DNA of 64,000 nt. It comes from Sinomonas sp. R1AF57. GTDB lineage: Bacteria > Actinomycetota > Actinomycetes > Actinomycetales > Micrococcaceae. Shown here piece after piece: positions 8,048-48,398 of this stretch (position 1 is the stretch's first letter; each line of letters opens with the position of its first letter). The notes below the pieces were generated by a model that was not told the DNA's origin, searched no databases, and worked only from the letters and a program-made list of their open reading frames with translations. A program made the translations under genes and the position numbers. The stretch covers positions 2,402,792 to 2,466,791 of the forward strand of contig NZ_CP022463.1 of assembly GCF_002224485.1 (NCBI RefSeq), read 5' to 3'.

Positions 8048-9271
8048 ATGCCCCATGACAAGCACACCCCGGAGCAGCTGGCGCCCCTGCTGACGCCGGA
8101 GGGCTGGGCCCTCCTCAATTCCCTCGGCCCCTACCGGGAGGACGAGGCGCTCGCGCTGTCCTCCCGGCTGCGCAAGGAGGGTCACTCCCCCGAGCTCGTC
8201 TCGGCCGTCCTGTCCCAGGCACGGCTGCGCGCCAAGGCGCAGGCCAAGTTCGGCGAGTTCTCCGCCCACATGCTCTTCACGCGGGCCGGCCTCGAGCAGG
8301 CAACGCGACTGTCGGTGGCCGCCCGGCACGCGCGGCGGTTCGTCGACGCCGGCGTGTCGCACGTCGCGGACCTCGGCTGCGGGCTGGGCGCCGACGCGCT
8401 CGCGATGGCCTCGCTCGACCTGGAGGTGACCGCCGTCGAGCTCGACGAGACGACCGCCGCCTGCGCGACCATGAACCTCATGCCGTTCCCCAAGGCGCGC
8501 GTGGTGCACGCGGACGCCCAGTCCGTGCCGCTCGAGGCGTTCGACGGCGTGTGGCTGGACCCGGCGCGGCGCGAGACGTCGTCGTCGGGCACCACGCGGA
8601 TCTGGGACCCGGAGGAGTTCTCGCCGCCGCTGTCCTTCGTGGAGTCCCTCGCCGCGCGCGGCCTGCCCGTGGGCGTCAAGCTCGGCCCCGGGGTGCCGCA
8701 CGAGTCCATCCCGGACGGCTGTGAGGCGCAGTGGGTGTCGGTCGACGGCGACGTGGCCGAGGTGGCCCTGTACTTCAACGCCCTCCGGCGCCCGACCGTG
8801 CGGCGCGCCGCCCTCGTGCTCTCCGCGGCAGGCGCGTCCGAGCTCGTCGCCGAGACCGACTTCGACAAGGGCACCGAGCCGCACGTCGGGCCGCTCGAGG
8901 GCTACCTCTACGAGCCCGACGGCGCAGTCATCCGCGCGGGCCTCGTCGCGGAGCTGGCCGAACGGCTCGGCGGCCACCTCGTCGACGAGCACATCGCGTA
9001 CATCTGCGCGCCTGACCTCGTCGCGACCCCGTTCGCGCGCGCCTACCGCGTGCTCGAGGTGCGGCCGTACAGCGTCAAGGCCCTGCGCGCCTGGGTGCGC
9101 GAGGAAGGCATCGGCGTCCTGGACATCAAGAAGCGCGGCACCTCCGTGACGCCCGAGGAGCTGCGGAAGATGCTCCTGGTCGGGCAGAAGAAGGGCGCCT
9201 CGAAGAAGGCGACCTTGGTCCTGACGCGCATCGGCGAGGAGCGGGTCGCGGCGGTCGTCGAACCCGCCTGA
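8048..9271 (+). CDS. Class I SAM-dependent methyltransferase with THUMP-like domain
   Basis: 407 residues. The N-terminal helical region (TPEGWALLNSL...) precedes a Rossmann methyltransferase core with the SAM motif VADLGCGLGADALAMA at about residues 110-125, an acidic motif (VTAVELDE) and VWLDPARRE in the place of the catalytic motif. A C-terminal THUMP-like part (KGTEPHVGPLEGYLYEPDGAVIRAGLV) suggests a structured RNA substrate. The family is common in actinobacteria but its substrate is not established. It is convergent with the shikimate dehydrogenase-like gene across a long hairpin. Confidence 0.85.
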   Translation: MPHDKHTPEQLAPLLTPEGWALLNSLGPYREDEALALSSRLRKEGHSPELVSAVLSQARLRAKAQAKFGEFSAHMLFTRAGLEQATRLSVAARHARRFVDAGVSHVADLGCGLGADALAMASLDLEVTAVELDETTAACATMNLMPFPKARVVHADAQSVPLEAFDGVWLDPARRETSSSGTTRIWDPEEFSPPLSFVESLAARGLPVGVKLGPGVPHESIPDGCEAQWVSVDGDVAEVALYFNALRRPTVRRAALVLSAAGASELVAETDFDKGTEPHVGPLEGYLYEPDGAVIRAGLVAELAERLGGHLVDEHIAYICAPDLVATPFARAYRVLEVRPYSVKALRAWVREEGIGVLDIKKRGTSVTPEELRKMLLVGQKKGASKKATLVLTRIGEERVAAVVEPA

Positions 9272-9284
9272 GCTTCCCCCACCC

Positions 9285-9367
9285 GTTGCGGGGTCCCTGC
9301 CGACCCGTTGAGGGGTCATGTCCCTGCAAGGACATGACCCCTCAAGGGCAGGGACGGGACCCGCAAC
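9285..9367. terminator. Long bidirectional hairpin terminator
   Basis: The core is a perfect 16-bp stem (9308-9323 with 9330-9345, loop CTGCAA). It is extended by imperfectly paired arms starting GTTGCGGGGTCCCTGCC (9285-9301) and ending GGACCCGCAAC. It lies between convergent genes. Confidence 0.8.
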
Positions 9368-9397
9368 GTCACTGGGCCCGACGTCGCTGGGCCGACA

Positions 9398-10243
9398 TCA
9401 CTGGGCCCGCATGAACTCCTCGGCCGCGGCGACCTGCTCGGGCGTCGGCGTGATGCCCGTGTAGAGGACGAACTGCTCGAGGGCCTGGATCGTCATGACT
9501 TCCGCGCCGGAGATGACGGTCTTCCCCGCGGCGCGGCCCGCGCGGGTGAGCGGGGTCTCGGGCGGGAGCGCGACGACGTCGAACACCACCCGCGCGGCCT
9601 CCACGGCGTCCTGGGGGAACGCGAGCGAGTCCGCGTCGGGGCCGCCCGCCATGCCGATGGGCGTGACGTTGACGAGCACGTCCGCCGCGGCGGCGCCGGG
9701 GGCTGCGTCCTGGAGCGCCGCCTCGACCGAGGGCTTCCACCCGAAGCCGTAGAGGTCCGCGAGCGCGCGCCCGGCCTCTTCGTTGCGCGCCACGACCGTC
9801 ACGTTCCGGAATCCGGCGTCGCGGAACGCCGCGGCGGTGGCCTTGGCCATGCCGCCCGACCCGCGCAGCATGACACTCCACTCCGGAACGAGCGCGTTGC
9901 GCTCGATCAGCTGGGCGATCGCCGTGTAGTCGGTGTTGTAGGCGGTGAGGACGCCGGAGTCGTTGACGACCGTGTTCACGGAGTCGATCGCGGCCGCCGA
10001 GGCGTCCATCCGGTCCACGAGCGCGATCACGTCCTCCTTGTACGGCATCGACACGGCGCACCCGCGGATCCCGAGCCCGCGCACCCCGGCGATCGCCTGG
10101 GTGAGGTCCGTGGGCGCGAAGGCCTTGTAGATCCAGTTCAGGCCCAAGGCCTCGTAGAGGTAGTTGTGGAAGCGCGTCCCGTTGTTGCTCGGCCTGGCCG
10201 AGAGCGAGATGCACAGCGTCATGTCTTTGTTCAGGATCGGCAC
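9398..10243 (-). CDS. Shikimate 5-dehydrogenase-like protein
   Basis: 281 residues, AroE fold: substrate-binding N-terminal half and NADP-binding C-terminal half. Seen are CISLSARPSN (the Ser-x-Ser substrate motif), VSMPYKEDV with the catalytic Lys, NTDYTA, and a nucleotide-binding stretch LRGSGGMAKATAAAFRDAG with the ARNEEAG loop. Family role: reduction of 3-dehydroshikimate or a related quinate-type substrate. There are no aro neighbours and it belongs to the divergent NKDMTLCISLSARPS subgroup, so a role outside the main shikimate pathway is possible. GTG start with TAGCCT 6 nt upstream suggests a leaderless mRNA. Confidence 0.82.
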   Translation of the reverse strand: MPILNKDMTLCISLSARPSNNGTRFHNYLYEALGLNWIYKAFAPTDLTQAIAGVRGLGIRGCAVSMPYKEDVIALVDRMDASAAAIDSVNTVVNDSGVLTAYNTDYTAIAQLIERNALVPEWSVMLRGSGGMAKATAAAFRDAGFRNVTVVARNEEAGRALADLYGFGWKPSVEAALQDAAPGAAAADVLVNVTPIGMAGGPDADSLAFPQDAVEAARVVFDVVALPPETPLTRAGRAAGKTVISGAEVMTIQALEQFVLYTGITPTPEQVAAAEEFMRAQ

Positions 10244-10469: not shown

Positions 10470-10517
10470 TATTCCGCGTCTCTGGTCCCCGCAGGGGCCC
10501 GGGTGTGCAATGGGACC

Positions 10518-12242
10518 ATGGAGCCCACTCCCGCGAGCGCCAACCAGCCGCCGCCGCGCACGGACGTCGACGAGTTCTCCTCCAACGCCGCGCTCGTGGA
10601 CGCGGTCCGCCGCCACGGCGCCGGGTGGGCCTCCGCCGAGCTCGCGGGGATCGGCCGGCTGGTCGGCTCCGCGGAGTTCGCCGAGCATGCGCGCCTCGCC
10701 AACGTCCACCCGCCCACGCTCCGGTCCCTGGACCGCTACGGCGAGCGCACGGACGAGGTGGACTACCACCCGGCCTACCACCACGTGCTCGGCGCAGCGG
10801 TCGCCCACGGCGCGCACACGTCGTCGTGGGCGGATCCGCGCCCTGGCGCCCACGCGGCGAGGGCGGCGGCGTTCATGCTCTTTGCCCAGGCCGAGCCCGG
10901 GCACGCGTGCCCCGTCTCCATGACGCACGCCGCGGTGCCCGCGGTGGTGGGCGAACCCGCCGTCGCGCGCGAGTGGCTCCCCGGGCTCCTCGGCGACGTC
11001 TACGACCCCCGGCTGGTCCGGCCCGCGGCGAAGCCCGGGGTGCTCATGGGCATGGCGATGACGGAGCGGCAGGGCGGCTCGGACGTGCGGGCCAACACCA
11101 CTCGCGCGGCCGACGCCGGCGACGGCACCGCCCGCATCACGGGCGCCAAGTGGTTCTGCTCGGCGCCCATGAGCGACGCGTTCCTGGTCCTCGCCCAGGA
11201 GTCCGCCGGGCTCTCGTGCTTCCTGGTGCCGCGCGTGCTCGAGGACGGGTCGAGGAACCCGTTCCGGCTCGTGCGGCTCAAGGACAAGCTGGGGAACCGC
11301 TCGAACGCCTCAGCGGAGGTCGAGTTCGAGGACACCCTCGGGTGGCGGCTCGGCGAGCCGGGCCGGGGCGTGCGGGCGATCATCCCGATGGTCCACGAGA
11401 CCCGTCTGGACTGCGTCCTCGGGACCGCCGCGGGCATGCGGCAGGCCGTCGCGGAGGCGGTGTGGCACGCCCGGCACCGGCGCGCGTTCGGGCGGCTCCT
11501 CGCCGACCAGCCGGCCATGGCAGCCGTGCTCGCCGACCTCGCGCTCGAGTACGAGGGCGCGGTGGCGCTCGGCATGCGGCTCGCCGCCGCGGACGACGCC
11601 GTGTGGCCGCGTCCAGGGGGTGACCTCGGCGCCGCAGGGGGTGACCTCGGCATCACAGGGGGTGACCTCGGCGCCACACGGGGTGACCTCGGCGCGGGGG
11701 CCGGTCGGGAGAGGGCCTTCGCGCGGATCGCCACCGCGGTCGCCAAGTACTGGGTGTGCAAGCGCGGTCCGGGCCACGCGGCCGACGCGCTCGAGTGTCT
11801 CGGCGGCAACGGGTACACCGAGGATTTCCCGCTCGCGCTGCGCTATCGGGAACAGCCCGTCATGGCCATCTGGGAGGGGTCGGGGAACGTCGTGGCGCTC
11901 GACGTCCTGCGGGCGCTCGCCCGTGAGCCCGAAGCCGCCGAAGCCCTCGCCGAGGAGCTCGAACGGCCGCGCGGGGCAGACCCGGAGCTCGACGCCCACC
12001 TCGAACGCGCCCTCGCACTCATGGCGGACGCGGCACGCGAGCCCGAGGAGGCCCAGCGGTGGGCGCGGGCCCTGGCCGAGACCCTCGCCCTGGCTCTGGA
12101 GGCCGTCCTGCTCGTGGAGGGCGCGCCGTCGTGCGTCGCCGAGGCATTCATCGCCTCCCGGCTGGGGCGCGAGCGCCGCCTCGGCTATAGCTGCCTCTCC
12201 GATACGGCGCGCGCCGAGGAGATCCTGGCCCGTGTGATGTGA
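10518..12242 (+). CDS. AidB-like acyl-CoA dehydrogenase with in-frame repeat insertion
   Basis: 574 residues, FAD flavoprotein of the acyl-CoA dehydrogenase superfamily, AidB subgroup (linked to alkylation response in E. coli). Hallmarks are [38 protein letters not shown], and near the C-terminus [21 protein letters not shown] and [20 protein letters not shown]. Between two helices four 21-bp units encode repeated GGDLGAx heptads (11614-11697) that the family does not need. Start uncertain: GTG 10503 is in frame, but ATG 10518 has a weak -10-like TGCAAT 6 nt upstream. Physiological substrate unknown. Confidence 0.88.
11614..11697. repeat. Four tandem 21-bp units inside the AidB-like gene
   Basis: Units CAGGGGGTGACCTCGGCGCC and variants, starting at 11614, 11635, 11656 and 11677. 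The 21-bp period keeps the reading frame (heptad [28 protein letters not shown]). The same core recurs at 17045-17107 and, inverted, at 20230-20292. Confidence 0.92.
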
Positions 12243-16346: not shown

Positions 16347-17026
16347 AGGGCGCGCTTCCGGGGGCCGGGCACCTGCGCGTCGGACTCGCGGAGGTACAGG
16401 GGTGTCGTGTCGGCCAGCGGGCTGCCTGCCGCGAGCCGGGCCACGGCGACGAGGCCGAGCGACGCGGCGGTCGGCTGCGCGGCGTCGAACGCTGCCACGG
16501 GCCGTGCGCCTGCGGAGGCGAGCTGCTCCGGGTAGATCCCGGCCCCGGCCCCGTAGACGGGAAGTGCCGGCAGCTCGCCGGGCGAGGTCACGTGAGGGCC
16601 GTCGAGGAGCGTGCCGTCCGCGGCGTAGCGGGCCCAGTAGAGCTCCTTGCGGCGCGCGTCGGTCGCCACGAGGAACTCGCTCGACGGCGCACCCTCCGCC
16701 ACGGCGTCCCACGCGAGGGCGTCGAGGCTCATGAGGCCCTCGAGCGGCGTGTCCCAGGCGAAGGCGAGGGCTCTGGCGGTGGCGATCCCGGAGCGGAGGC
16801 CGGTGAAGGGGCCGGGCCCGACGCCGACGACGATCCGGGCGATGTCCGCCCCGCCCACGGACTGCTCGTCGAGGAGGGCGCGGATGCCGGGCGCGAGGAC
16901 CTCGGCGTGGGACTTGGTGTCCTCGGTGGCGAACGATGCGAGGACGGCCGCGTCGCTGAAGGACTCGTGGCAGCGGATGAGCGCCGCCGATGCGATGGCT
17001 GAGGTGTCGATGGCGAGGACGATCAT
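16343..17026 (-). CDS. tsaB: t6A biosynthesis protein TsaB
   Basis: 227 residues, non-catalytic TsaD paralogue that scaffolds the TsaB-TsaD-TsaE complex. Starts [17 protein letters not shown]; the central motif is [20 protein letters not shown]. It lacks the TsaD metal-binding His pair. ATG 17026 overlaps the tsaE stop (ATGA). Confidence 0.95.
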
Positions 17027-17685
17027 CGGCCTGCCTCCCGCTCGGACGGGGTGACCTCGGCGCCACCAGGGGTGACCTCGGCGTCACCAGGGGTGACCTC
17101 GGCGGAGGCGGGGCGGTCGACGGCGGGCCACGGCACCTGCGGGTGCTCGGCCCACCGCGGGCCGAAGGCGCGGATCCTCAGCAGGCGCGGCTCGTCGTCG
17201 TCCTCGGTGTCGAAGTCGAGCACGGGCGCGGCGTGGTCGGCCCCGGGCGCCGGCGCCCCCGCCCGGACCAGCTCGATGTCCAGCCATGAGTCGACGAGGT
17301 GCTCGACGCGCCCGCGGCCCCACTCGACGACCGTGACGGCGGTGTCGGCCCAGTTCTCGAGGTCGAGGTCGTCGATTTCGCCCTCCCCCTCGAGGCGGTA
17401 CGCGTCGACATGGACGAGGTCCGGGCCGCCGGGGCGGGGCCCGTCGGGCAGGTTGGGGTGGATCCGCACGAGCACGAACGTCGGCGAGATGATGCCGGGT
17501 CGCACCCCGAGACCTTCGCCGAGTCCCTGGGTGAACGTGGTCTTGCCGGCGCCGAGCTCGCCCGTGAGGACGATGAGGTCACCGGGTGCGAGCGCGCCGG
17601 CGAGCGCCGCGCCGAGCGCCTGCGTCTCCTCGGCGGAGGCGGGCGCGAAGGCGAGCTCCCATGCCGGGGCGCCGGCAGCGCTCAC
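17023..17685 (-). CDS. tsaE: t6A complex ATPase TsaE with repeat-derived C-terminal tail
   Basis: 220 residues. P-loop ATPase needed for turnover of the t6A complex: Walker A GELGAGKTTF near residues 42-51, then ISPTFVLVRIH, LVHVDAYRLEGEGEIDDLDL and VTVVEWGRG, all TsaE signatures. The family core ends by about residue 190. The last residues are three heptads (AEVTPGD, AEVTPGG, AEVTPSE) encoded by three 21-bp units of a dispersed repeat. GTG 17685 overlaps the alr stop (GTGA). Confidence 0.94.
   Translation of the reverse strand: MSAAGAPAWELAFAPASAEETQALGAALAGALAPGDLIVLTGELGAGKTTFTQGLGEGLGVRPGIISPTFVLVRIHPNLPDGPRPGGPDLVHVDAYRLEGEGEIDDLDLENWADTAVTVVEWGRGRVEHLVDSWLDIELVRAGAPAPGADHAAPVLDFDTEDDDEPRLLRIRAFGPRWAEHPQVPWPAVDRPASAEVTPGDAEVTPGGAEVTPSEREAGR
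17045..17107. repeat. Three tandem 21-bp units at the 3' end of tsaE
   Basis: Units starting at 17045, 17066 and 17087, core GGGGTGACCTCGGCG, the same family as 11614-11697. Here tsaE reads the opposite strand, so the peptide is AEVTPG(D/G) rather than GGDLGA. Confidence 0.92.
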
Positions 17686-18959: not shown

Positions 18960-20228
18960 GTGCAGCACCTCCACCGCGTGGCGATGATCTCCCTCCACAC
19001 GTCTCCGCTCGAGCAGCCGGGCGCCGGGGACGCCGGCGGCATGAACGTCTACGTCTCGCACCTGGCCCGCGCCCTCGCTGCAGCGGGCCTGGCCGTGGAC
19101 ATCTACACGCGCGCCACCGATCCGGCCCAGCCGGACGTCGTGGCGCTGGAGGAGGGCGCGCTGGTCCACCACATCGAGGCCGGCCCCCGCCGCCGGCTCG
19201 CGAAGGAACAGATGCCCCCGCTCGCCGAGGAGTTCGCGGCCGGGGTCCTGCGCCGCATGCGCGCGGGCCTCGCAGCGGGAGGCGAGCGGACCGGCGTCGT
19301 GCATTCGCACTACTGGGTGTCCGGGATCGCGGGGCTGCGGGTCTCGGACGAGCTGGGCATCCCGCTGGTCCACACGATGCACACCATGGCGCGGGTGAAG
19401 AACCTGCACCTCGCCGCGGGCGACACGCCCGAGCCGAGCAACCGCGAGCGCGGCGAGCAGAGGATCGCCGACACCGCGGCCCGGCTGACGGCGAACACGC
19501 CGGCCGAGCGGGACGAGCTCGAGCGGCACTACGGGGTGGACGAGGACCGGATCGACGTGGTCTCCCCCGGTGTGGACCTCTCCGTGTTCCGGCCGGCGTT
19601 CCGCACGGGCTCCCGCGCCGGGCGAGGGATCGCGCCCGGGACGTTCCATGTGCTGTTCGCGGGTCGGATCCAGCGGCTGAAGGGGCCGCCGGTGCTCGTG
19701 GCCGCGGCGGGGGTGCTTCGGAGGCGGCGCCCGGACATCCCGCTGCGCGTGTCGATCGTGGGGGCGCCGAGCGGCTCGGCCGGGCTGGACCTCGACGTGC
19801 TCGTGGGCGAGGAGGGGCTCGACGGCGTCGTGCGCCGCCTCCCGCCCGCGCCGGCGGCGGAGCTCGCGGACTGGTTCCGCTCCGCCGACGTCGTGGCGAT
19901 GCCGAGCTTCTCGGAGTCGTTCGGGCTCGTGGCGCTCGAGGCGCAGGCGTGCGGGACCCCCGTGGTGGCGGCCCGGGTCGGCGGCCTCACGCGCGCGGTG
20001 TGCGACGGGCGCACCGGATTCCTCGTCGACGGGCACGACCCCGAGGCGTGGGCCGCCGTGCTCGAGCAGCTCCACGACGACCCGGAGACGCGCACCGACC
20101 TGGGGCGCGCGGCGTCGATCTATGCCGAGCGGTTCGGCTGGGAGCAGACGGCCGAGGCCACCCGGCAGGCCTACCGCGCGGCGCTGCGCGAGCGCGCGCT
20201 GGCGGCGGAGCACGCCGTCGTCCCCTGA
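18960..20228 (+). CDS. mshA: D-inositol-3-phosphate glycosyltransferase MshA
   Basis: First committed step of mycothiol synthesis: transfers GlcNAc from UDP-GlcNAc to inositol 3-phosphate. 422 residues, GT4/GT-B fold. The N-terminal signature ISLHTSPLEQPGAGDAGGMN is diagnostic. HSHYWVSGIAGLRV, VVSPGVDLSVFRP and the donor-site block MPSFSESFGLVALEAQACGT are present. GTG 18960 is chosen from the upstream -10 box. ino1, which makes the acceptor, lies 5 kb downstream on the other strand. The stop is followed directly by the 21-bp repeat array. Confidence 0.95.
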   Translation: MQHLHRVAMISLHTSPLEQPGAGDAGGMNVYVSHLARALAAAGLAVDIYTRATDPAQPDVVALEEGALVHHIEAGPRRRLAKEQMPPLAEEFAAGVLRRMRAGLAAGGERTGVVHSHYWVSGIAGLRVSDELGIPLVHTMHTMARVKNLHLAAGDTPEPSNRERGEQRIADTAARLTANTPAERDELERHYGVDEDRIDVVSPGVDLSVFRPAFRTGSRAGRGIAPGTFHVLFAGRIQRLKGPPVLVAAAGVLRRRRPDIPLRVSIVGAPSGSAGLDLDVLVGEEGLDGVVRRLPPAPAAELADWFRSADVVAMPSFSESFGLVALEAQACGTPVVAARVGGLTRAVCDGRTGFLVDGHDPEAWAAVLEQLHDDPETRTDLGRAASIYAERFGWEQTAEATRQAYRAALRERALAAEHAVVP

Positions 20229-20229
20229 C

Positions 20230-20330
20230 CCGCCGAGGTCACCCCCTCTGCCGCCGAGGTCACCCCCTCTGACCCCGAGATCACCCCCAACACAGCACGT
20301 GACCCCCAGAAGGTGACCCCCAGAAGGTTC
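20230..20330. repeat. Repeat array between mshA and fhs
   Basis: Three 21-bp units (20230, 20251, 20272; CCGCCGAGGTCACCCCCTCT type) are the reverse complement of the GGGGTGACCTCGGCG repeat found inside the AidB-like gene and tsaE. They are followed by shorter GTGACCCCCAGAAG units with a period of about 14 bp. Confidence 0.88.
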
Positions 20331-28577: not shown

Positions 28578-29087
28578 ATGGCTGACTTCGACCCGATCCG
28601 CGAGCTCGACCGCTTCGCCACCGCCCTGCTCGGCCAGCGCAGCGGCATGAGGCTCATGCCGATCGACCTCTTCCGCGAGGGCGACCACTACATCGTCCAC
28701 GCCGACCTCCCCGGCATCGACCCGGGGTCCGTCGACATCGACGTCGACGGCCAGCTCCTCACGATCCGCGCGGAACGGACAGTCCGCGGACGCGAGGGCG
28801 TGGCCTGGATCGCGCGGGAACGCGAGGGCGGCACTTTTTTGCGCCAGCTGACCCTCGGCCAGGGCATCGACACGGAGAACATCACCGCGAACTACAGCAA
28901 CGGCGTCCTCGCCGTGACCATCCCCGTCTCCGAACGAGCCCGACCGCGCCGTATCCCCGTCGCGACCGACCAGGGCGGCGACATGAAGGTGGTGGGCCAC
29001 CGGAGTGGCGACGCCGCCCCGCAGGACCTCGGCGAGCGCCACGGGGACCAGGGCGCAGCCGGCGGTCAGAAGTCGGTCTCGGCCTGA
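28578..29087 (+). CDS. Hsp20/alpha-crystallin small heat-shock protein
   Basis: 169 residues, ATP-independent holdase. The alpha-crystallin domain runs from about residue 35 to 130: DLFREGDHYIVHADLPGIDP, SVDIDVDGQLLTIRAERTV and YSNGVLAVTIPVSERARPRR, with the C-terminal I-P-V anchor motif in RRIPVATDQ. ATG 28578 with GGAG upstream; GTG 28569 is an alternative. The CIRCE about 85 bp upstream predicts HrcA control. Confidence 0.95.
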   Translation: MADFDPIRELDRFATALLGQRSGMRLMPIDLFREGDHYIVHADLPGIDPGSVDIDVDGQLLTIRAERTVRGREGVAWIAREREGGTFLRQLTLGQGIDTENITANYSNGVLAVTIPVSERARPRRIPVATDQGGDMKVVGHRSGDAAPQDLGERHGDQGAAGGQKSVSA

Positions 29088-29097
29088 TCCGGACCCG

Positions 29098-29152
29098 CAG
29101 GAGGTGACCTCCAGGAGGTGACCTTCAGGAGCTGACCTTCAGGAAGTGACCC
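29098..29152. repeat. Short tandem repeat between hsp20 and treZ
   Basis: Four units of 14-15 bp of the form CAGGAGGTGACCTT. The GGTGACC core relates it to the 21-bp family and to the short units at 20296-20330. It fills the gap between convergent genes. Confidence 0.75.
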
Positions 29153-31099
29153 CTAGACGGAAGGAGGGAGGGCGAGCACGACGGCGGCGAGGCCGGCCAA
29201 GCGGACGGCCGCGCCGCCGTCGTGCGTCGCCTCGACGGAGCAGTCCTCGCTGGTCGCGACGGCGATCCGGGCCCGCGTGCCCGCGGGCAGCGGGACCTCG
29301 ACCGGCCCCGGCCCGAAGCCGACGCACACCATGGCGCCCGGACGCCGCCACGCGACCCACCGTGCCCCGGCGTCCACGTCGCCTGCGCCGGCCTCTCCCC
29401 CGCCGGAGGTCACCTCGGTCTCGTCGAGCCGCCCCTGCCACAGCCCGGGCAGCTCCGCGCGGGCCGCGATGAGCCGCCGGTAGAGGTCCAGCATGCGGGC
29501 CCCGTCGGGGGTCTCGGCCTCGGACCAGTCCAGGACGGACCGCTCCCGCGTGGCGGGGTCCTGCGGGTCGGGCACGAGCGCCGGGTCCCAGCCCATGCGC
29601 GCGAATTCCTCGATGCGGCCCTTGCGGGTGGCCTCGGCGAGCTCGGGCTCGGGGTGGGAGGTGAAGAACTGCCACGGGGTCGTGGCCCCGTACTCCTCGC
29701 CCATGAACAGCATGGGCGTGAACGGCGAGGCGAGCGTCAGCACGGCCGCGACGGCGAGCCCGTCGCGGGACAGGGTCGCGCTGGGGCGGTCGCCGGTGGC
29801 GCGGTTGCCCACCTGGTCGTGGTTCTGGCTGCAGACCACGAGCTGCGCGGCGTCCACGAGCGAGTGGTCGACGGGGCGCCCGTGCACCCTGCCGCGGAAG
29901 CTGGAGTAGGTCCCGTCGTGGTAGAAGCCGCCCCGCAGCACCTTCGGCAGCGCCTCAAGGTCGGCGAAGTCCTCGTAGTAGCCGGACGTCTCGCCCGTGA
30001 GCGCGACGTGGAGGGCGTGGTGGTAGTCGTCGCTCCACTGGGCGCCGAGCCCGTAGCCCGCGGGCCGGGACTCGAGGAGGCGCGGGTTGTTCATGTCGGA
30101 CTCGGCGATGAGCACCTTGCGGCGCCCGGTCCCCGCCTCGATGTCCTCGGCCAGCAGCTGCAGCTCCTCGAGCAGCGTCAGGGCGCGCCGGTCCACGAAC
30201 GCGTGGACCGCGTCGAGCCTGAGGGCGTCCACCCGGTAGTCCTCGAGCCACATCCGGGCGTTGCCCAGGATGAAGGCGCGGACCTCGTCGGAGGCGGCCG
30301 AGTCCAGGTTCACCGCGTCGCCCCACCCGGTCGCCGCACCGGGGACGAGGTAGGGCCCGTACTGGGGCAGGTAGTTCCCGCTCGGGCCGAGGTGGTTGTA
30401 CACCACGTCCTGCACGACGGCGATCCCCGCCGCGTGCGCCGCGTCGACGAACCGCTGGTAGGCCGCTGGGCCCCCGTAGCCCTCGTGGACCGTGTACCAG
30501 AGGACCCCGTCGTAGCCCCAGTTGTAGGGGCCGTTGAACCCGTTCACCGGCAGGAGCTCCACGAAGCCGACGCCGAGCTCGGCGAGGTACGGCAGCCGGG
30601 CTGCCGCGGCGTCGAGCGTGCCCTCGGGGGTGAAGGTGCCCACGTGCAGCTCGTACACGACCGAGCCGGCGAGCTCGCGGCCGGCCCAGCCCTCGTCGGC
30701 CCACTCGTGCGCGCCCGGGTCGAAGCCCGCGGAGAGGGCGTGGACGCCCTCGGGCTGGCGCCGCGAGCGGGGGTCGGGGAAGGGTCCGGCCCCGTCGACG
30801 ATGTAGCCGTACCGCTCCCCTGCCGCGAGGGCCGCGGCCACACGGTCCCGGTCCGCGGCCGGCGGCGCCCACCAGCCGGAGCCGGGTCCGCCCGTGGGGT
30901 CGGATTCCTTGGCGGGGCCGGTAGGAACGGGCTCGAGCTCGATCCGCTCGTCGCCGAGCACGAGCTCGAGGTCCTCCGGGACCGGGGCCCAGACGCTGCC
31001 AAGCGGAGGTTTCGACTCCGCTGCGCTCCGCTCAACCACCGTCGACTCCGCTGCGCTCCGCTCAACCACCGTCGACTCCGCTGCGCTCCGCTCAGTCAT
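29153..31099 (-). CDS. treZ: Malto-oligosyltrehalose trehalohydrolase
   Basis: GH13 enzyme that releases trehalose from maltooligosyl-trehalose. 648 residues. Catalytic Asp in [12 protein letters not shown], Glu in [13 protein letters not shown], and NHDQVGN. Normal family proteins start at about the [19 protein letters not shown] segment. Here about 34 extra residues (three ERSAAEST/K repeats) precede it, encoded by a 30-bp tandem repeat that also contains the ATG. The treY stop lies within the same repeat (8-nt overlap). A 14-bp hairpin with the GCACGACGGCG arm sits within the 3' end (29176-29225). Confidence 0.94.
29176..29225. repeat. Hairpin inside the 3' end of treZ
   Basis: GCACGACGGCGGCG (29176-29189) pairs perfectly with 29212-29225. 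Same arm core as the hairpins at 321, 5317 and 25905, but within coding sequence. Confidence 0.7.
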
Positions 31100-31100
31100 G
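31008..31100. repeat. Three 30-bp repeat units over the treY-treZ junction
   Basis: Units with core TCGACTCCGCTGCGCTCCGCTC at 31008-31037, about 31041-31067 and 31071-31094. Same family as the four copies inside treY. On the gene strand they read [10 protein letters not shown]. Confidence 0.9.
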
Positions 31101-33659
31101 GTGGGCCTCCTCGGGGACGAGCAGCGCGACCGGGAGCGCGCGCAGGATGTCTGCGACCGGCACCTCGCCGGCCTCGAAGAGCTCGCCGGTGAACGCGCAC
31201 CGCGCGTCCCGGGCGAGCCGCACCGTCGTCGTGCCCCAGCCGCCCGCAGCGGCGAGCCCGGCGGGCAGGCGCGTGGCGAGGGCGACGACGCCGCGCTCCC
31301 CCCGCCTGAAGCCCAACAGGTGCGCTGCGGCGGGGCCGGACGCCTCGACGGGCGCGTAGCCGGAGAAGAGCTCGGGCCGGTCGCGGCGCAGCCGCAGGGT
31401 CCGGGACACCACGAGGAGCTTGGCCTCCTCGGCCAGCGGCGAGATCACGGGCGCGCCGGCGTCGAGCGCGGCGAGGGCCTCGGCGCGGGCGGCGAAGTCG
31501 ACCTCGCGGCGGTTGTCCGGGTCGCACAGGGACCGGTCCCAGAACTCGGTGCCCTGGTAGACGTCGGGGACCCCGGGCATGGCGAGCTGGACGAGCTTGG
31601 CGGAGAGCCCGTTGGAGGCCCCGAACAGGGCGATCCGGTCCGCGAACTCCGCGAGGAGCGTGTGCGCCTCGCCGGGCTCGGTCGCGGCGTCGACGAGCGC
31701 GCGCAGGCCGTCCTCGAACTCCTGGTTCGGGTCGGTCCAGAGCGTGTGCACCCCGGCCTCGCGCGCGGCCTTCTCGGCGTACTGCAGGAGCCGTTCTCGG
31801 TCCGCCGGCCACGCGCCGAGGACCGCCTGCCACAGCAGGTTCGCGAGGGGGCCGTCCAGGACGGCGGCGTCCGGGGTCGCCGCGATGAGCCGCGGCAGCA
31901 GCGCGGCCCACTCGTCGGCGAGCTCGGCCAGGACCGTGATGCGGGCGCGGGTGTCCTCGCTGCGCTTCGTGTCGTGGGTCGTGAGGGTGGTCATGGAGTG
32001 CGGCTGGCGGCGCTCGCGCTCGGCGGCGGCCGCGTGGAACTCCGCTGGCGGGAGGGCGAACCGGGTCGGGTCCCCGCCCACCTCGGTGAGCGTGCCGAGA
32101 CGGGAGTACCGGTAGAACGCGGTGTCCTCGACGGCCTTGGCCATGATCATGCCGGTGGTCTGCTGGAAGCGCCGGCACAGCTCCTCGCCCGGGTCGGCGA
32201 GCCGCGGCGCGAGCCCCTCGACCGTCGCAGCGAGGTCGGGGCGCACGACGGCGGCCTGCTCGCACGCGCGTGCCAGCACGGCGGCGTCGTGCTCGCCTCC
32301 GTCCCCGGCGCCGGTGCGCCCGGGGGCCAGGTAGGTCCGGTAGACGGGGAACTGGGCGGCGATCTCGGCGAGCGCGTCGGCGAGGGTGTCGATGCCGAGG
32401 GGTTTCGACTCCGCTTCGCTGCGCTCAACCGCCGCCGCCGGGACGTCGGCGAGGGTGTCGATGCCCTGGGGTTTCGACTCCGCCTCGCTGCGCTCAACCG
32501 CCGCCGCCGTGTCGATGCCGAGGGGTTTCGACTCCGCTTCGCTGCGCTCAACCACCGTCGCCGTGTCGATGCCGAGGGGTTTCGACTCCGCTTCGCTGCG
32601 CTCAACCGCCGCGGCCGGGACCGCGGCGAGCCGCGCGAGCCGGCGGATCTCGGCGTTGAGGAGGCCGTCCGCCATCCACCGCTTGGTCCCATGGGTCATG
32701 GCGGGGTAGTCGGCGGGCTCGCCGCGGAGCTTGGTGTCGAGGTCGGTCAGCGGCGCCTCCCCCGCCGGGTCCACGAAGACCCGGTCGATGAGGCCGAGGG
32801 CGTCGTAGCCGGTGGTGCCCTCGCACTCGAAGTCCTCGGGCAGCTCCTCGCCGTCCTCGAGGATCTTCTCCACGAGGGTATACGCCCCGCCGGAGAGCTC
32901 CCGCAGGCGGACGAGGTACTCGGCGGGGTCGAAGAGCCCGTCTGGGTGGTCGATCCGCAGCCCGTCGACGAGCCCCTCCTCGATCCAGCGCCGCACCTCG
33001 GCGTGGCTCTGCTCGAACACCCACGGAACCTCGACCCGCACCCCGGCGAGGCTGTTCACCGCAAAGAAGCGCCGGTAGTTCAGCTTCGTGTCCGCCTCGC
33101 GCCACGGGATGAGCCGGTAGTGCTGGCGCTCGTGCACCTCCTGCGCGGAGTCGCCCTCGGTCCACGAGCCCGGCGCGAGCGGGTACAGGTGCTCGTAGTA
33201 GCGCAGCCTGTTGCCCTCGATCGCGAGCAGCTCCACGTCCTCGGCGCTGCCCAGCACGGGCAGGAGCACCTTCCCGCCCCCGGCGTCCCAGTCGACGTCG
33301 AACGCGTCCGCGTAACGCGAGGAGCGCCCCTCCCTCAGGAGCGACCACCACCACGGGTTCTCCTCGGGAGACGCGACGCCGAAGTGGTTCGGCACGATGT
33401 CCACGAGGACGCCCAGGCCGGCGTCGTGCGCCGCCGCGGCGGCGGCCGCGAGGCCCTCGCGCCCGCCGCGTTCCCGGTCCACCCGGTAGGGGCCGGAGAC
33501 GTCGTAGCCGTGCTCCGAGGAGCCCACGGACTCCAGCAGCGGGGACAGGTAGAGCCAGTCCACGCCGAGGGAGTGGAGGTAGGGCACCAGGTCCGCGGCA
33601 TCGGTGAGCGTGAAGCCGGGGCGGATCTGGAGGCGGTAGGTCGAGGCGGGGGTCTTCAT
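31092..33659 (-). CDS. treY: Malto-oligosyltrehalose synthase with repeat insertion
   Basis: GH13 isomerase that turns the reducing-end alpha-1,4 bond of maltodextrin into alpha,alpha-1,1 trehalose. 855 residues, longer than most. Starts [20 protein letters not shown]; catalytic Asp in [13 protein letters not shown], Glu in [30 protein letters not shown] follows. Between [12 protein letters not shown] and [16 protein letters not shown] four [14 protein letters not shown] repeats are inserted, encoded by a dispersed DNA repeat. ATG 33659 with AAGGAG upstream; 19 nt after glgX, so co-transcribed. Confidence 0.95.
32401..32607. repeat. Four dispersed-repeat copies inside treY
   Basis: Near-identical 30-mers starting GGTTTCGACTCCGC at 32401, 32470, 32524 and 32578. 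They are separated by 24-39 bp that also repeat (GCCGCCGCCGTGTCGATGCC type). All four are read in the same frame as [10 protein letters not shown]. Confidence 0.95.
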
Positions 33660-44998: not shown

Positions 44999-46813
44999 TC
45001 AGAAGACGGCCGTGAACCCGCCCCAGCCCCAGCCGACCTTCGAGGCGCCCTTCCAGTAGCCCTCCGCCAGGCTGCGGCCCTTGGCCGTCGCGTTGGTGAG
45101 GTACATCGAGAGGCTCCCGCCGCCGTCGACCGCGAACACGTCCGGGTCGCCGTCGCCGGTGAAGTCGCCCACGGTGCCGATGCGCGCGAAGGTCCAGCCC
45201 GTGCCGATCGTCTGCGCGCTGACGTTCATGAACCCGCCGGCGCCGTCGCCGCGGAAGAGCCGCAGGCTGCCCTGCTGGTCGCGGGCCACGAGGTCCGTCT
45301 TGAAGTCGCCGTCCATGTCCACGGCGGTGAGCTGGTCCAGGCCGTCCCAGCCCCAGCCGACGGTGGCCGGTGCGAGCCAGCTGCCGCGCCCGTCCCCCGG
45401 GTACACGACGATGGTGTTCTGCGCGGTGCGGGCGAGGACGTCGTTGAAGCCGTCGCCGGTGAAGTCCCCGGCGCCGACGATGTCCTTCATGCCCTGCCAG
45501 CCCGCGCCGACCTGGCGGCTGCCCTTCCAGCCGCCCGCGCCGTTGCCGGAGTAGAGGAAGAGCCGCCCGGCGGCGTCGCGCGCGAGGACGTCGGGGGCGC
45601 CGTCGCCGTCGAAGTCGCCGGGGGCGAGGAGCTTGTCGAAGCCGCCCCAGCCCCAGCCGACCGCGTGGGCGGGGAGCCAGCCGCCGGCGCCGTTGCCCGG
45701 GTAGAGCATGAGCGTGCCGTCGGCGGTGCGGGCGAAGACGTCGGCCCGCCCGTCGGCGTCGAAGCCGCTCGTCTGCGCCGCGGCCCTGGCCCGGACGGCG
45801 GGCGTCGTGACGGTCTTGCTGGAGAGGCCGCCGTCGTAGGAGAGGGTGAAGTCGACGCTGAGGAGGTGGGCCACGTCGTCGGCCGTCACCGTGTACTGGG
45901 GCTGGACCGCCCCCGGGATGGGCACGCCGTCGCGCTTCCAGAGGTAGGTGTAGGTGGGGGTGCCGCCGTCGGGGATGACGGACGGAGGAACCGGCGAGCC
46001 AAACTCGGGGCGGATGCTCCCGCCGACGGCGGCGTTGCCCGCCATGACGACCCGCGGGACCAGGACCGTGCGGGCAGCGGGGCCGTAGGGGGCGCTGGTG
46101 AACTGCGCCGGCCGGTAGCTGGGCGCTGTGGCTGAGATGGTGAGGGTGATCGTCGTGCCGGCCTCGGAGAGCCCGAGTCCGTAGTCCGGGTTGGTGGCGC
46201 CGGGGATCGGCTGGCCGTCGCTGAACCACTGGTAGGAGATCTCCGCGCCGGCAGGCCACACGGTGACGGGATTCGCGATCGAGAGCCGCAGCCCGGGGAC
46301 GCGCTCCTCCTTGATCACCGGCGTGTACGCGGGGAAGTCGGCCAGGGTCGGATTCGGGTTGTCGATTTGGAGGTCACCGGAGCTCAGGGGCGCGCTGCCC
46401 GCGGGCTCTTCGCCGCGGTGGACGAACCGGGCCAGGCCGCCGCCGGCCACGTAGACGTCGGTCAGCTGGTGCGTGCCGCTGAGGGAGATCGTCTTGGCGG
46501 TGATCGGGGCGACCGAGGCCGTCGTGGTGCCGGGCCCCGTCCATTCGGCGCGGACCGTTTCCCGGGTGTAGGCATCCCTGAAGTGGAAGACCACGAAGGT
46601 GACCGGCGCGGACGCCGTGAACGTCACAGCTGCCGGCTGTCCCGGGACAACGGCCTCCGCGGGCGGCTGGATGAGCGTCAGGACGGGCGCCTCGGGATCC
46701 GCGGCGTGGGCGGCGGGTGCCAGGAGCACCGCGGCGAGGATGGCAGAGAGCACGACGGCGGCGAGTCGCCGCAGGCGTGCGGGCGCGCAGGAGCGCGGGT
46801 CGGCAGTGACCAA
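44999..46813 (-). CDS. Secreted FG-GAP repeat protein 3 (subfamily B)
   Basis: 604 residues. Signal peptide (LAAVVLSAILAAVLLAPAAHA), N-terminal domain like protein 2 (VVFHFRDAYTRETVRAEWTG), Ig-like domains (ISYQWFSDGQPIPGATNPDY; YLWKRDGVPIPGAVQPQYTV), five FG-GAP repeats (one degenerate, DMDGDFKTDLVARD) and the ending GWGWGGFTAVF. TTG 46813 conserved with its neighbours. The leader is a near copy of the one before gene 2. Confidence 0.87.
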   Translation of the reverse strand: MVTADPRSCAPARLRRLAAVVLSAILAAVLLAPAAHAADPEAPVLTLIQPPAEAVVPGQPAAVTFTASAPVTFVVFHFRDAYTRETVRAEWTGPGTTTASVAPITAKTISLSGTHQLTDVYVAGGGLARFVHRGEEPAGSAPLSSGDLQIDNPNPTLADFPAYTPVIKEERVPGLRLSIANPVTVWPAGAEISYQWFSDGQPIPGATNPDYGLGLSEAGTTITLTISATAPSYRPAQFTSAPYGPAARTVLVPRVVMAGNAAVGGSIRPEFGSPVPPSVIPDGGTPTYTYLWKRDGVPIPGAVQPQYTVTADDVAHLLSVDFTLSYDGGLSSKTVTTPAVRARAAAQTSGFDADGRADVFARTADGTLMLYPGNGAGGWLPAHAVGWGWGGFDKLLAPGDFDGDGAPDVLARDAAGRLFLYSGNGAGGWKGSRQVGAGWQGMKDIVGAGDFTGDGFNDVLARTAQNTIVVYPGDGRGSWLAPATVGWGWDGLDQLTAVDMDGDFKTDLVARDQQGSLRLFRGDGAGGFMNVSAQTIGTGWTFARIGTVGDFTGDGDPDVFAVDGGGSLSMYLTNATAKGRSLAEGYWKGASKVGWGWGGFTAVF

Positions 46814-46937: not shown

Positions 46938-48398
46938 CTAGAAGACGGCGGTGAAGCCGCCCCAGCCCCAGCCGGCCACGCTCGAGGAGGGGTTCCGCCA
47001 GTCGCCGCCGGCGTCGCCGTACCGGGCGTGCATGCTGCCGATCCCCCAGTACATGGTGAGGTCGCCGGCGGCGTTGACGGAGAAGACGTCGGCGTCGCCG
47101 TCGCCGTTGAAGTCGCCGGGGCCGCCGACGAACCGCAGGCCCCACCAGCCGTCGCCGATGTAGCTGCCCTGGCGGGCGCCGAAGCCGCCGGCGCCGCTGC
47201 CGCCGTACAGCTTCAGGTGGCCGAACCCGTAGTCGTAGGCGATGCCGAGGACGTCGGGGGCGAAGTCGCCGTCGAAGTCGCCGGGCGAGGTGAGGCCCGA
47301 GAGGCTCCCCCAGCCCGTGCCGATCACGCGGGCCCCGAGCCAGCCGCCGCGGCCGTTGCCGGGGTAGAGCCAGAGCTGGCCGGCGGTGTCGCGGGCGATG
47401 AGGTCGTTGGTGCCGTCCCCGTTGAAGTCGCCGGGCGCGACGAGGGCGTTGAAGCCGCCCCAGCCCTGGCCGATCTGCCAGGCGCCCTTCCAGCCGCCCT
47501 GGCCGTTGCCCTGGTAGAGGAAGAGGCGGCCGGCGGCGTCCCGGGCGATCACGTCGGCGGCGCCGTCGCCGTCGAAGTCGCCGGGGGCGAGGAGCGTGTC
47601 GAAGCCGCCCCAGCCGCGGCCGATGGTCTGCGGCGCGAGCCAGCCGCCGCGGCCGTCGCCCGGGTAGAGGACGAGGTCCCCGGCGGCAGTACGGGCGAAC
47701 AGGTCCGCGGTGCCGTCGCCGTTGAACCCGGCGGCGCGGCGCGTCGCGGGGACGAGGATGGAGGCGGTCACGGGCGCGGAGGAGCCCACCGTGCCCATCG
47801 TGACGATGACGCCGAGCCGGCGCCCGCGGTCCGCGGCCTGCACGGTGTACCTGGCCTCGGTCGCGCCCGGGATGGGCGCGCCGTCGCGGGTCCAGGCGTA
47901 CGTGTACGAGATGGGCAGTGCGGTGGGCTTCGTGGTGGGCCGGTTGTAGCCGAGGAACTCGGGCCAGAGCTCGTGGCCGGCGTCGGGCTGGCCGACCAGC
48001 ACCACCGGCACCGTTTCGACGCGGGTCCCGAGCGGGCCGAACGCGGCCGAGCTGCCGGCGTGGTACCCGAAGTTCCGGCTCGTCTCCTCCGCCTGGACGC
48101 TGAGGGCCTTGCCGGTGTCGTTGAGCGGGTCGCGGGTGTAGCACCGGCCGGTGGCTGCCGTGGGCTGGCCGTCGAGGAGCCAGCGGTACTGGGACAGGCC
48201 GTCGGTGGGCCAGGAGACGGTGGCGCAGAGCTGGACCGAGGTGACGGGGTCGCCGCTGATGGTGACGATCTCGGTGCCGAATGCGGCCGCCGGCCGCGCG
48301 GGCAGGGCCACGAGCGCCGTGATGAAGGTGAGAAGCACGACGGCGGTGGCGAACCACCTGCGTGCGGGCGCGCCGAAGCGCGGAGACAGGACGTCCAA
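46938..48398 (-). CDS. Secreted FG-GAP repeat protein 4 (subfamily A)
   Basis: 486 residues. Signal peptide (RWFATAVVLLTFITALVALP), two Ig-like domains matching protein 1 (VTISGDPVTSVQLCATVSWP; YAWTRDGAPIPGATEARYTV) and five FG-GAP repeats, with the ending GWGWGGFTAVF. TTG 48398 chosen: it matches the start of genes 2 and 3 and follows GGGGGCCCC. 114 bp from the divergent sortase gene. Confidence 0.87.
   Translation of the reverse strand: MDVLSPRFGAPARRWFATAVVLLTFITALVALPARPAAAFGTEIVTISGDPVTSVQLCATVSWPTDGLSQYRWLLDGQPTAATGRCYTRDPLNDTGKALSVQAEETSRNFGYHAGSSAAFGPLGTRVETVPVVLVGQPDAGHELWPEFLGYNRPTTKPTALPISYTYAWTRDGAPIPGATEARYTVQAADRGRRLGVIVTMGTVGSSAPVTASILVPATRRAAGFNGDGTADLFARTAAGDLVLYPGDGRGGWLAPQTIGRGWGGFDTLLAPGDFDGDGAADVIARDAAGRLFLYQGNGQGGWKGAWQIGQGWGGFNALVAPGDFNGDGTNDLIARDTAGQLWLYPGNGRGGWLGARVIGTGWGSLSGLTSPGDFDGDFAPDVLGIAYDYGFGHLKLYGGSGAGGFGARQGSYIGDGWWGLRFVGGPGDFNGDGDADVFSVNAAGDLTMYWGIGSMHARYGDAGGDWRNPSSSVAGWGWGGFTAVF

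Follow-up and report, generated by a model that had tools for sequence, protein, structure and literature searches.

Dispersed 21-bp tandem repeats lie behind genes and, in frame, within conserved proteins of Sinomonas

Introduction

How did four head-to-tail copies of a 21-bp DNA unit come to lie in the middle of an AidB-like acyl-CoA dehydrogenase gene, and do they belong to the protein or to the genome around it? The gene is found in a stretch of 64,000 nucleotides from Sinomonas sp. R1AF57 (the whole of which is referred to here as the window), whose genome, designated G000, is a single contig of 3,939,870 bases and was compared with 14 others of the genus (G001 to G014). A sequence-only reading of the window had taken the insert for a dispersed, non-coding repeat able to reside inside conserved proteins, and had likened it to the palindromic elements of Rickettsia. 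Below, the unit is followed through this genome and its relatives, the host protein is aligned among them, and the insert is placed on a structural model.

Results

The AidB-like gene (10518..12242, forward strand) was identified from the ORF list, Pfam and PDB relatives. Its ORF of 579 aa spans 10503-12242 (+), with a GTG start at 10503 in the ORF list and the first ATG at 10518. The protein matches the Pfam families AidB_N (2.9e-55), Acyl-CoA_dh_1 and Acyl-CoA_dh_M, is related to PDB entries 5ez3 and 3djl, and is 78% identical to its nearest named relative, from Sinomonas albida. The array, at 11614..11697 on the forward strand and sense to the gene, consists of four units of the kind here called type A, which read GGDLGAx at approximately residues 365-391. 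Sequence, ORF and TRF (period 21, 3.9 copies, 11614-11695, score 136) agree on the four tandem in-frame units originally described, and the reading frame stays open across all of them.

While aidB is present in all 15 Sinomonas genomes searched, the GGDLGAx heptads are confined to the gene of G000 (1/15), the same loop in the other 14 having unrelated sequence and mostly a different length. It is short in 20 further aligned AidB sequences, one of them that of S. albida and 19 belonging to other genera. PDB 5ez3 lacks the insert, with query residues 360 and 390 aligning to a single chain residue, and the best aligned stretch of 3djl stops at query residue 360. An AlphaFold model built from 21 sequences (mean pLDDT 86.9) contains only one internal segment with pLDDT below 50, residues 365-391, which falls between helices 332-362 and 393-426; in the model the insert is a floppy loop extension.

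The unit recurs elsewhere in the window. Thirteen matches to its 15-bp core were found at two or fewer mismatches, against a mean of 0.97 and a largest value of 4 in 100 dinucleotide shuffles; three are isolated, and the other 10 belong to three arrays, with four matches at 11617-11694 and three each at 17048-17104 and 20231-20287. The second array comprises three type-A units on the forward strand (17048..17104), antisense to tsaE (17023..17685, reverse strand; Pfam TsaE 6.7e-31, TIGR00150). It encodes AEVTPGDAEVTPGGAEVTP at the TsaE C terminus, immediately ahead of the tsaB start, a position empty of type-A units in the other 14 Sinomonas genomes. The third (20225..20287, reverse strand) also has three units, two with exact cores and one whose core has two mismatches, and lies directly 3' of a putative mshA (18960..20228, forward strand; the name is that of the sequence-only reading and the frame was checked), the stop codon of which it abuts with the unit 3' end facing the gene. 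The tsaE copy, and the inverted copy between mshA and fhs, are as the sequence-only reading had described them. Two 14-bp units of a second kind, type C (GGTGACCCCCAGAA), follow at 20296..20330 on the forward strand and, together with the type-A array at 20225..20287, make up a -/+ pair of divergent orientation; a further 14-bp type-C array (29098..29151, forward strand) fills the gap between two convergent genes, which end at 29087 and 29153. Both 14-bp arrays have the same GGTGACC heart as type A.

Other repeats in the window were recorded as separate observations. A 15-bp tandem array (9366-9409) sits in the gap between two convergent genes that end at 9271 and 9398, and 150-bp tandem repeats occur in two neighbouring regions (45497-45768 and 47265-47726). 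A second dispersed repeat, TTTCGACTCCGC..GCTCAACC, is found at 31012-31094 and 32375-32617. It forms a 30-bp array where a gene with an alpha-amylase domain (31092-33659, reverse strand) has its 3' end, and 54/69-bp arrays within that gene; copies number 32 in G000 and 12 in G005, four other genomes have 1-3, and nine have none, as does a reversed control.

In the whole of G000 the exact 15-bp core occurs 77 times (42 forward, 35 reverse), and the core pattern read backwards has no match. Two outcomes would have spoken against a dispersed repeat, namely a glycine-rich loop common to the relatives or a unit confined to this gene. Since the heptads are missing from the AidB of 14 relatives and the unit recurs dozens of times across the genome, what was found is repeat DNA and not a conserved loop. 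A strict scan, which required GTGAC, GCGAC or ATGAC in each unit and a spacing of 20-22 only, scored 61 type-A arrays with 245 units (2-9 per array) in the window and 40 array-centred stretches of G000, a biased sample picked around arrays. The perfect conservation of the GTGAC-type stretch follows from the scan criterion and is therefore not evidence. Unbiased samples were taken from G011, G005 and G013 (400 kb each) and from two other genera (200 kb each). By our gene calls, which came from a simple custom codon-model script instead of a standard caller so that some assignments to genes or to N termini may be inaccurate, 43 of the 61 arrays are intergenic and 18 lie within 15 genes. "Non-coding repeat" accordingly describes the 43, and fails for the 18 that are coding and in selected frames. 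Units are more alike inside an array (identity 0.88) than between arrays (0.80). As a separate observation, one fifth of the G000 chromosome (2.4-3.2 Mb) contains the starts of 31 of the 61 strict arrays, and the matches in G011 are likewise crowded, in the 2.4-3.7 Mb part of its genome.

Intergenic arrays keep to the downstream ends of genes. A 3' end is the nearest gene end for 36 of the 43 intergenic type-A arrays. The core [AG]GTGAC[CT][CT]C has a density in convergent gaps of 3.2 per kb in G011 and 3.8 in G005, in codirectional gaps of 1.0 and 0.4, in divergent gaps of 0.06 and 0.14 and in genes of 0.14 and 0.07, respectively, with 0-0.08 per kb in the reversed control for these two genomes. 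Type-A arrays are also polar. Gene 3' ends within 20 bp of a type-A unit lie on its 3' side in 22 cases vs 2 on its 5' side (p = 3.6e-5); a looser family scan, which also picks up a few chance matches in genes, gives 26 vs 5 in G000 and 9 vs 1 in G011, and a loose set, chance matches included, 28 vs 8, type-A counts varying because thresholds differ between scans. The corresponding figures are 10 vs 7 (G000), 4 vs 3 (G011) and 8 vs 1 (G005) for the 14-bp family, 2 vs 4, 0 vs 2 and 0 vs 2 for a 22-bp family, and 3 vs 3 and 2 vs 1 for a 19-bp family. A further 21-bp unit, type B, gives 3 vs 1 in G011 and 9 vs 5 among the 18 intergenic arrays of G008, a set which comprised these and one in-gene array after three rows of one array were merged. 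Neighbouring type-A arrays no more than 1.6 kb apart stand in minus-plus order in 16 of 18 cases in the strict set; by the family scan the order holds in 18/21 cases in G000, 11/13 in the unbiased G011 sample and 6/10 in G005. Within genes the orientation of type A is balanced, with 10 arrays sense and 8 antisense.

Several explanations at the level of transcription and translation were considered for the position behind stop codons and set aside. Distances from array to stop codon occur in all three phases (11, 11 and 8), which disposes of read-through into the arrays, and an informal comparison of the stops at arrays (24 TGA, 6 TAG) with those overall (256 TGA, 104 TAG, 15 TAA) did not lead us to adopt a preference for TGA. 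Across the junction of two units, unit A can fold (-8.7 kcal/mol) into a stem of 6 pairs closed by an 8-nt loop, a weak, imperfect palindrome; unit B reaches -11.4 kcal/mol on the other strand and unit C -0.7 to -3.2. Folded as RNA, the 61 arrays have a mean z of -1.45 on the unit strand and -0.33 on the other. An RNA hairpin terminator was rejected as a general explanation, single arrays in the mRNA sense having a mean z of -0.33, and at two gaps, judged by eye, the arrays sit beyond hairpins. Close -/+ pairs would form long RNA stems. Given these z scores, RNA folding does not explain the polarity of type A, and a simple polar terminator is further disfavoured by the loss of polarity inside genes. 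Type-B and many type-C units (e.g. window 29098-29151) carry on the unit strand GGAGGTGA, which resembles a full Shine-Dalgarno sequence. Selection against this sequence in mRNA could produce an orientation bias at gene ends; the polarity of the 14-bp family in G000 is only weak.

The genes of G000 that bear arrays are diverse. They include aidB, tsaE, tilS, dnaX, moeA, pabB and ligD, together with genes for a 2-oxoacid dehydrogenase E2, a phosphopantetheinyl transferase, a LUD protein, an XdhC-like protein, a DUF4194 protein, a StiP-phosphoribosyltransferase fusion, a TetR regulator and one protein without a Pfam match. An in-gene array adds seven residues per unit and causes no frameshift, the unit being 21 bp long. 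The encoded peptides, in 2-9 copies, are of the GDLGATR, VTSAPHG and AEVTPxG types, and the frames that yield them are not used at random: all 8 antisense arrays are in the AEVTP frame, out of three (7 are independent, two being pieces of one pabB array), and the 10 sense arrays divide into 6 in the GDL frame, 4 in the VTS frame and 0 in the TGA frame. In the E2 gene, as in pabB, a pair of arrays is present with the minus array ahead of the plus one, and G011 likewise has arrays in these two genes. The 22- and 19-bp units, which do not preserve the frame, had none of their 30 arrays in genes. Between 21-bp and 14-bp units the in-gene share differs in the pooled data (44/122 vs 12/80, p = 0.0012), but not significantly in G000 alone (18/61 vs 2/15, p = 0.33).

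A search of the relatives finds the unit dispersed in some Sinomonas and scarce or missing in others. Pairs of GGTGACC at period 21 number 149 in G008, 124 in G000, 86 in G011, 80 in G010 and 34 in G003; 12 in G009, 5 in G004, 3 in G005, 2 in G012 and 1 each in G002, G006 and G014; and none in G001, G007 and G013. In an even sample of 230 other genomes of the family, drawn from a larger group, the pattern never exceeds 5 per genome. A reversed control gives at most 2. The commonest unit of G008 among the matches listed, judged by eye, is GGTGACCCCGCATCGCAGGGA, which differs from type A outside the GGTGACC heart. G005 has 14- and 19-bp units, which share a TGAC core, and G011 additionally has the 22-bp unit. 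Overall, the unit families of the relatives (14, 19, 21, 22 and 31 bp) occupy similar kinds of location, including some of the same protein linkers. In G013 the convergent gaps contain no GGTGACC-type core; TRF nevertheless finds 13 tandem arrays in 43 such gaps, made of unrelated units, for example of 31 bp. The samples from two other genera had 1 and 0 tandem arrays in 14 and 11 convergent gaps.

Eight of the nine G000 sites whose flanks were recovered in the fetched G011 pieces carry units in G011 too. Among orthologous convergent gaps of G011 and G005, arrays are present in both species in 7, in one only in 6 and 3, and in neither in 16 (p = 0.049); for codirectional gaps the numbers are 4, 8 and 5, and 99 (p = 0.006). 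Such sharing exceeds chance, and may point to long-standing sites, to a preference for certain sites or to a function. Orthologous gaps that lack arrays have medians of 36-62 bp, and one convergent gap with arrays in G000, G011 and G005 measures minus 4 bp in G013 by the custom gene calls, which we count as a sign that the arrays are dispensable. At position 2705753 of G000 a gap keeps its -/+ pair in both species compared, with the copies on different sides. Inspection by eye of four gaps across three species, and of one more across two, showed no target duplication, and no insertion was caught in the act at the level of strains.

Inside proteins, species differ in which repeat occupies a given permissive site. 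The linker of TilS is short in five of the 15 genomes and contains intermediate stretches in seven; in the remainder it is made of heptads, AEVTPSG in G000 (type A), EVTPHRR in G008 (type B) and AEIGSGD in G005. The type-B array in tilS of G008 (G008:C3:336039-336129) is apparently an independent invasion of the permissive site that type A uses in G000. MoeA has a GDLG insert in G000 only (1/15), and exactly at the position of this 21-bp array the MoeA of G012 carries a long repeat of the GGAADGGAAH type. The tail of TsaE, which carries AEVTP in G000, bears MGSGD-type heptads in G008.

Discussion

These observations are probably best explained, at a likelihood we would put near 0.7, by viewing the AidB array as one copy of a dispersed, rapidly turning-over family of short tandem repeats, tolerated behind genes and, where the frame is preserved, in protein loops. 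By this account, single units or a few of them would spread to new sites in Sinomonas, and arrays would then grow and shrink locally by whole-unit duplication, presumably of a slippage type, as array-specific unit variants and between-species differences in copy number suggest; the closer identity of units within arrays than between them fits such growth. Surviving insertions lie mostly in weakly constrained DNA 3' of stop codons, chiefly in convergent gaps and rarely in divergent gaps, which contain promoters, while selection would purge those that enter promoters, shift frames, introduce stops or disrupt structured parts of proteins. In-gene arrays would persist where a peptide free of stops falls within a loop (the case of AidB), a linker or a tail, loop tolerance acting as the likely filter. 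One unit is common to G000, G003, G010 and G011, and others replace it in G008, G005 and G013, which leaves relatives with other repeats at similar or even the same sites. Of this account, the dispersion, the location, the polarity of type A, the filtering by frame, the presence or absence between genomes and the turnover are observed directly. The family may be selfish or neutral. A purely neutral repeat, however, does not predict the polarity of type A or the minus-plus order of arrays, and that polarity is the strongest hint of something beyond a passive repeat.

The palindromic elements of Rickettsia, to which the insert had been likened, are described as approximately 150 bp long, each with a conserved peptide (PMC10969869). 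The likeness holds for behaviour, in that 18 arrays form in-frame inserts in 15 unrelated conserved genes, and not for membership, since the Sinomonas repeats are 21-bp direct repeats, weakly palindromic, that encode three different peptides. Another parallel is provided by the heptamer arrays (GGGAATC / GGGGATT) of Xanthomonas and Nostoc, which are dispersed, head-to-tail and near stop codons with a strand preference, seldom lie between divergent genes, fall inside genes in 7-11% of cases in Xanthomonas, and form 70 and 75 close inverted pairs in two Xanthomonas (PMC4692102). Type A resembles these arrays in being a short tandem unit at many loci, found at 3' ends with a strand preference and inverted pairs, although the preference is not general in the other Sinomonas families. 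On the other hand, the heptamer unit of 7 bp is described there as quadruplex-forming and mostly between codirectional genes (PMC4692102), whereas the Sinomonas unit is 21 bp and enriched in convergent gaps; further features found in Sinomonas are the turnover of the unit from one relative to another and the heptads, in selected frames, that conserved enzymes have taken in. A G-quadruplex explanation was rejected, the pattern (G3+, loops 1-12) occurring in only 6 of 61 type-A arrays. Within the actinobacteria, the mycobacterial MIRU/VNTR loci are also dispersed tandem repeats near stop codons, with longer units.

REP elements of the GTAG and CGTC superfamilies lie between convergent or codirectional genes, most of the convergent ones less than 20 bp from 3' ends, form dimers of opposite orientation, occur as several families per organism, and are in some cases in genes, whose linkers and loops are argued to tolerate them (PMC3733652). 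The Sinomonas arrays share with them the position at gene 3' ends, the opposite-orientation pairs and some intragenic copies. REP units, however, are tagged stem-loops with stems of 5-13 bp, the GTAG type being accompanied by a RAYT, and the word Actinobacteria does not occur in the main text of that study (PMC3733652); the Sinomonas units differ in lacking a tag in five of six, in their direct tandem arrays, in having no RAYT and perhaps in their weak stem. A GTAG or CGTC tag was missing on either strand of units A, B and C, the 19-bp unit and the 31-bp unit of G013, and CGTC does occur in the 22-bp unit, as a candidate stem tag at most. A Y1/RAYT transposase (PF01797) was found in none of the 15 Sinomonas genomes, and in 5 of 14 control genomes.

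The parallel with REPs nonetheless invites a different account, in which the basic unit is a -/+ palindrome that moves as a REPIN- or MITE-like element and whose arms are later amplified or decay to singles. The predominance of -/+ pairs, the opposite-orientation dimers near 3' ends described for REPs (PMC3733652), and the retention of the last three core bases in 89-93% of outermost units vs 50-80% of inner ones (61 arrays) all speak for it. Yet the inner spacers of pairs, from 14 bp to 1.1 kb, share no sequence, the unit has no tag, PF01797 is found in none of the 15 genomes, and among 28 single arrays an inverted partner matching at least 11 of 15 positions was found as often on the expected side (11) as on the control side (11). 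Four single arrays do reach 13-15/15 on the expected side only, but the 11-of-15 level shows no excess, and decayed partners were rejected as an explanation of single arrays. We regard the inverted-pair origin as unlikely. A MITE proper was discarded, given the unshared inner sequences and the lack of target duplication by eye, and phage carriage likewise, the two-unit pattern having no exact match in viral contigs.

Functional readings have been weighed at both the DNA and the protein level. Arrays could be DNA boundaries, with a protein bound to phased sites acting as a polar roadblock behind stop codons and sparing the convergent neighbour from polymerase; 21 bp corresponds to two turns of B-DNA. 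The single polarity of type-A arrays that abut stop codons (22 vs 2), the enrichment in convergent and depletion in divergent gaps, the recurrence of a TGAC core in 14- and 19-bp units and the repeated use of the same orthologous gaps would all be expected of such an element. Against it, polarity is weak or absent in most other families (14-bp in G000 and G011, 22-bp, 19-bp and type B), type A is balanced in genes although one orientation should block transcription there, the convergent-gap arrays of G013 use unrelated units devoid of the core, arrays lie beyond hairpin terminators at two sites (by eye), and orthologous gaps that lack arrays have a median length of just 36-62 bp. The weakness of polarity outside type A and the circularity of core conservation lower our estimate of boundary readings in general, and we consider this one distinctly unlikely. 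An extended version, in which arrays mark the ends of Sinomonas transcription units, the motif is replaced in each lineage together with a putative reader protein as a fast co-evolving boundary system, and spill-over writes heptads into conserved enzymes, has a logic comparable to that of the tandem terminator boxes found downstream of rRNA genes in eukaryotes, and is very unlikely. That the AidB heptads are themselves functional, for instance as a glycine-rich surface binding DNA or a partner, could draw on the non-random reading frames of in-gene arrays, but the heptads are missing from the AidB of 14 other Sinomonas and from 20 other aligned sequences, the insert is disordered in the model, and unrelated proteins receive different heptads from the same DNA, which together make this reading extremely improbable.

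The dispersed, tolerated repeat family that we favour is not a new kind of system. Among dispersed short tandem repeats it is an unusually complete case that lends itself to testing: the unit preserves the reading frame, is restricted to the genus among the genomes searched, and gives way to other units in other lineages. In the mostly non-subscription literature on Sinomonas and on actinobacterial intergenic or convergent tandem repeats that our search covered, the matches listed included no Sinomonas repeat of this type and, apart from one unrelated paper, only the related systems cited above. For annotators, the practical implication is that heptad inserts in AidB, TilS, DnaX, MoeA, LigD and other proteins of Sinomonas represent repeat DNA, not domains. 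The polarity of type A, with neither a known transposase nor a clear RNA structure behind it, is a testable puzzle. More broadly, the genus offers a clean natural experiment on the spread of short repeats through a bacterial genome and their tolerance there: because sister species fill some of the same gaps and linkers differently, as in TilS, MoeA and the TsaE tail, insertion bias, selection on reading frame and tolerance in loops can be separated from one another.
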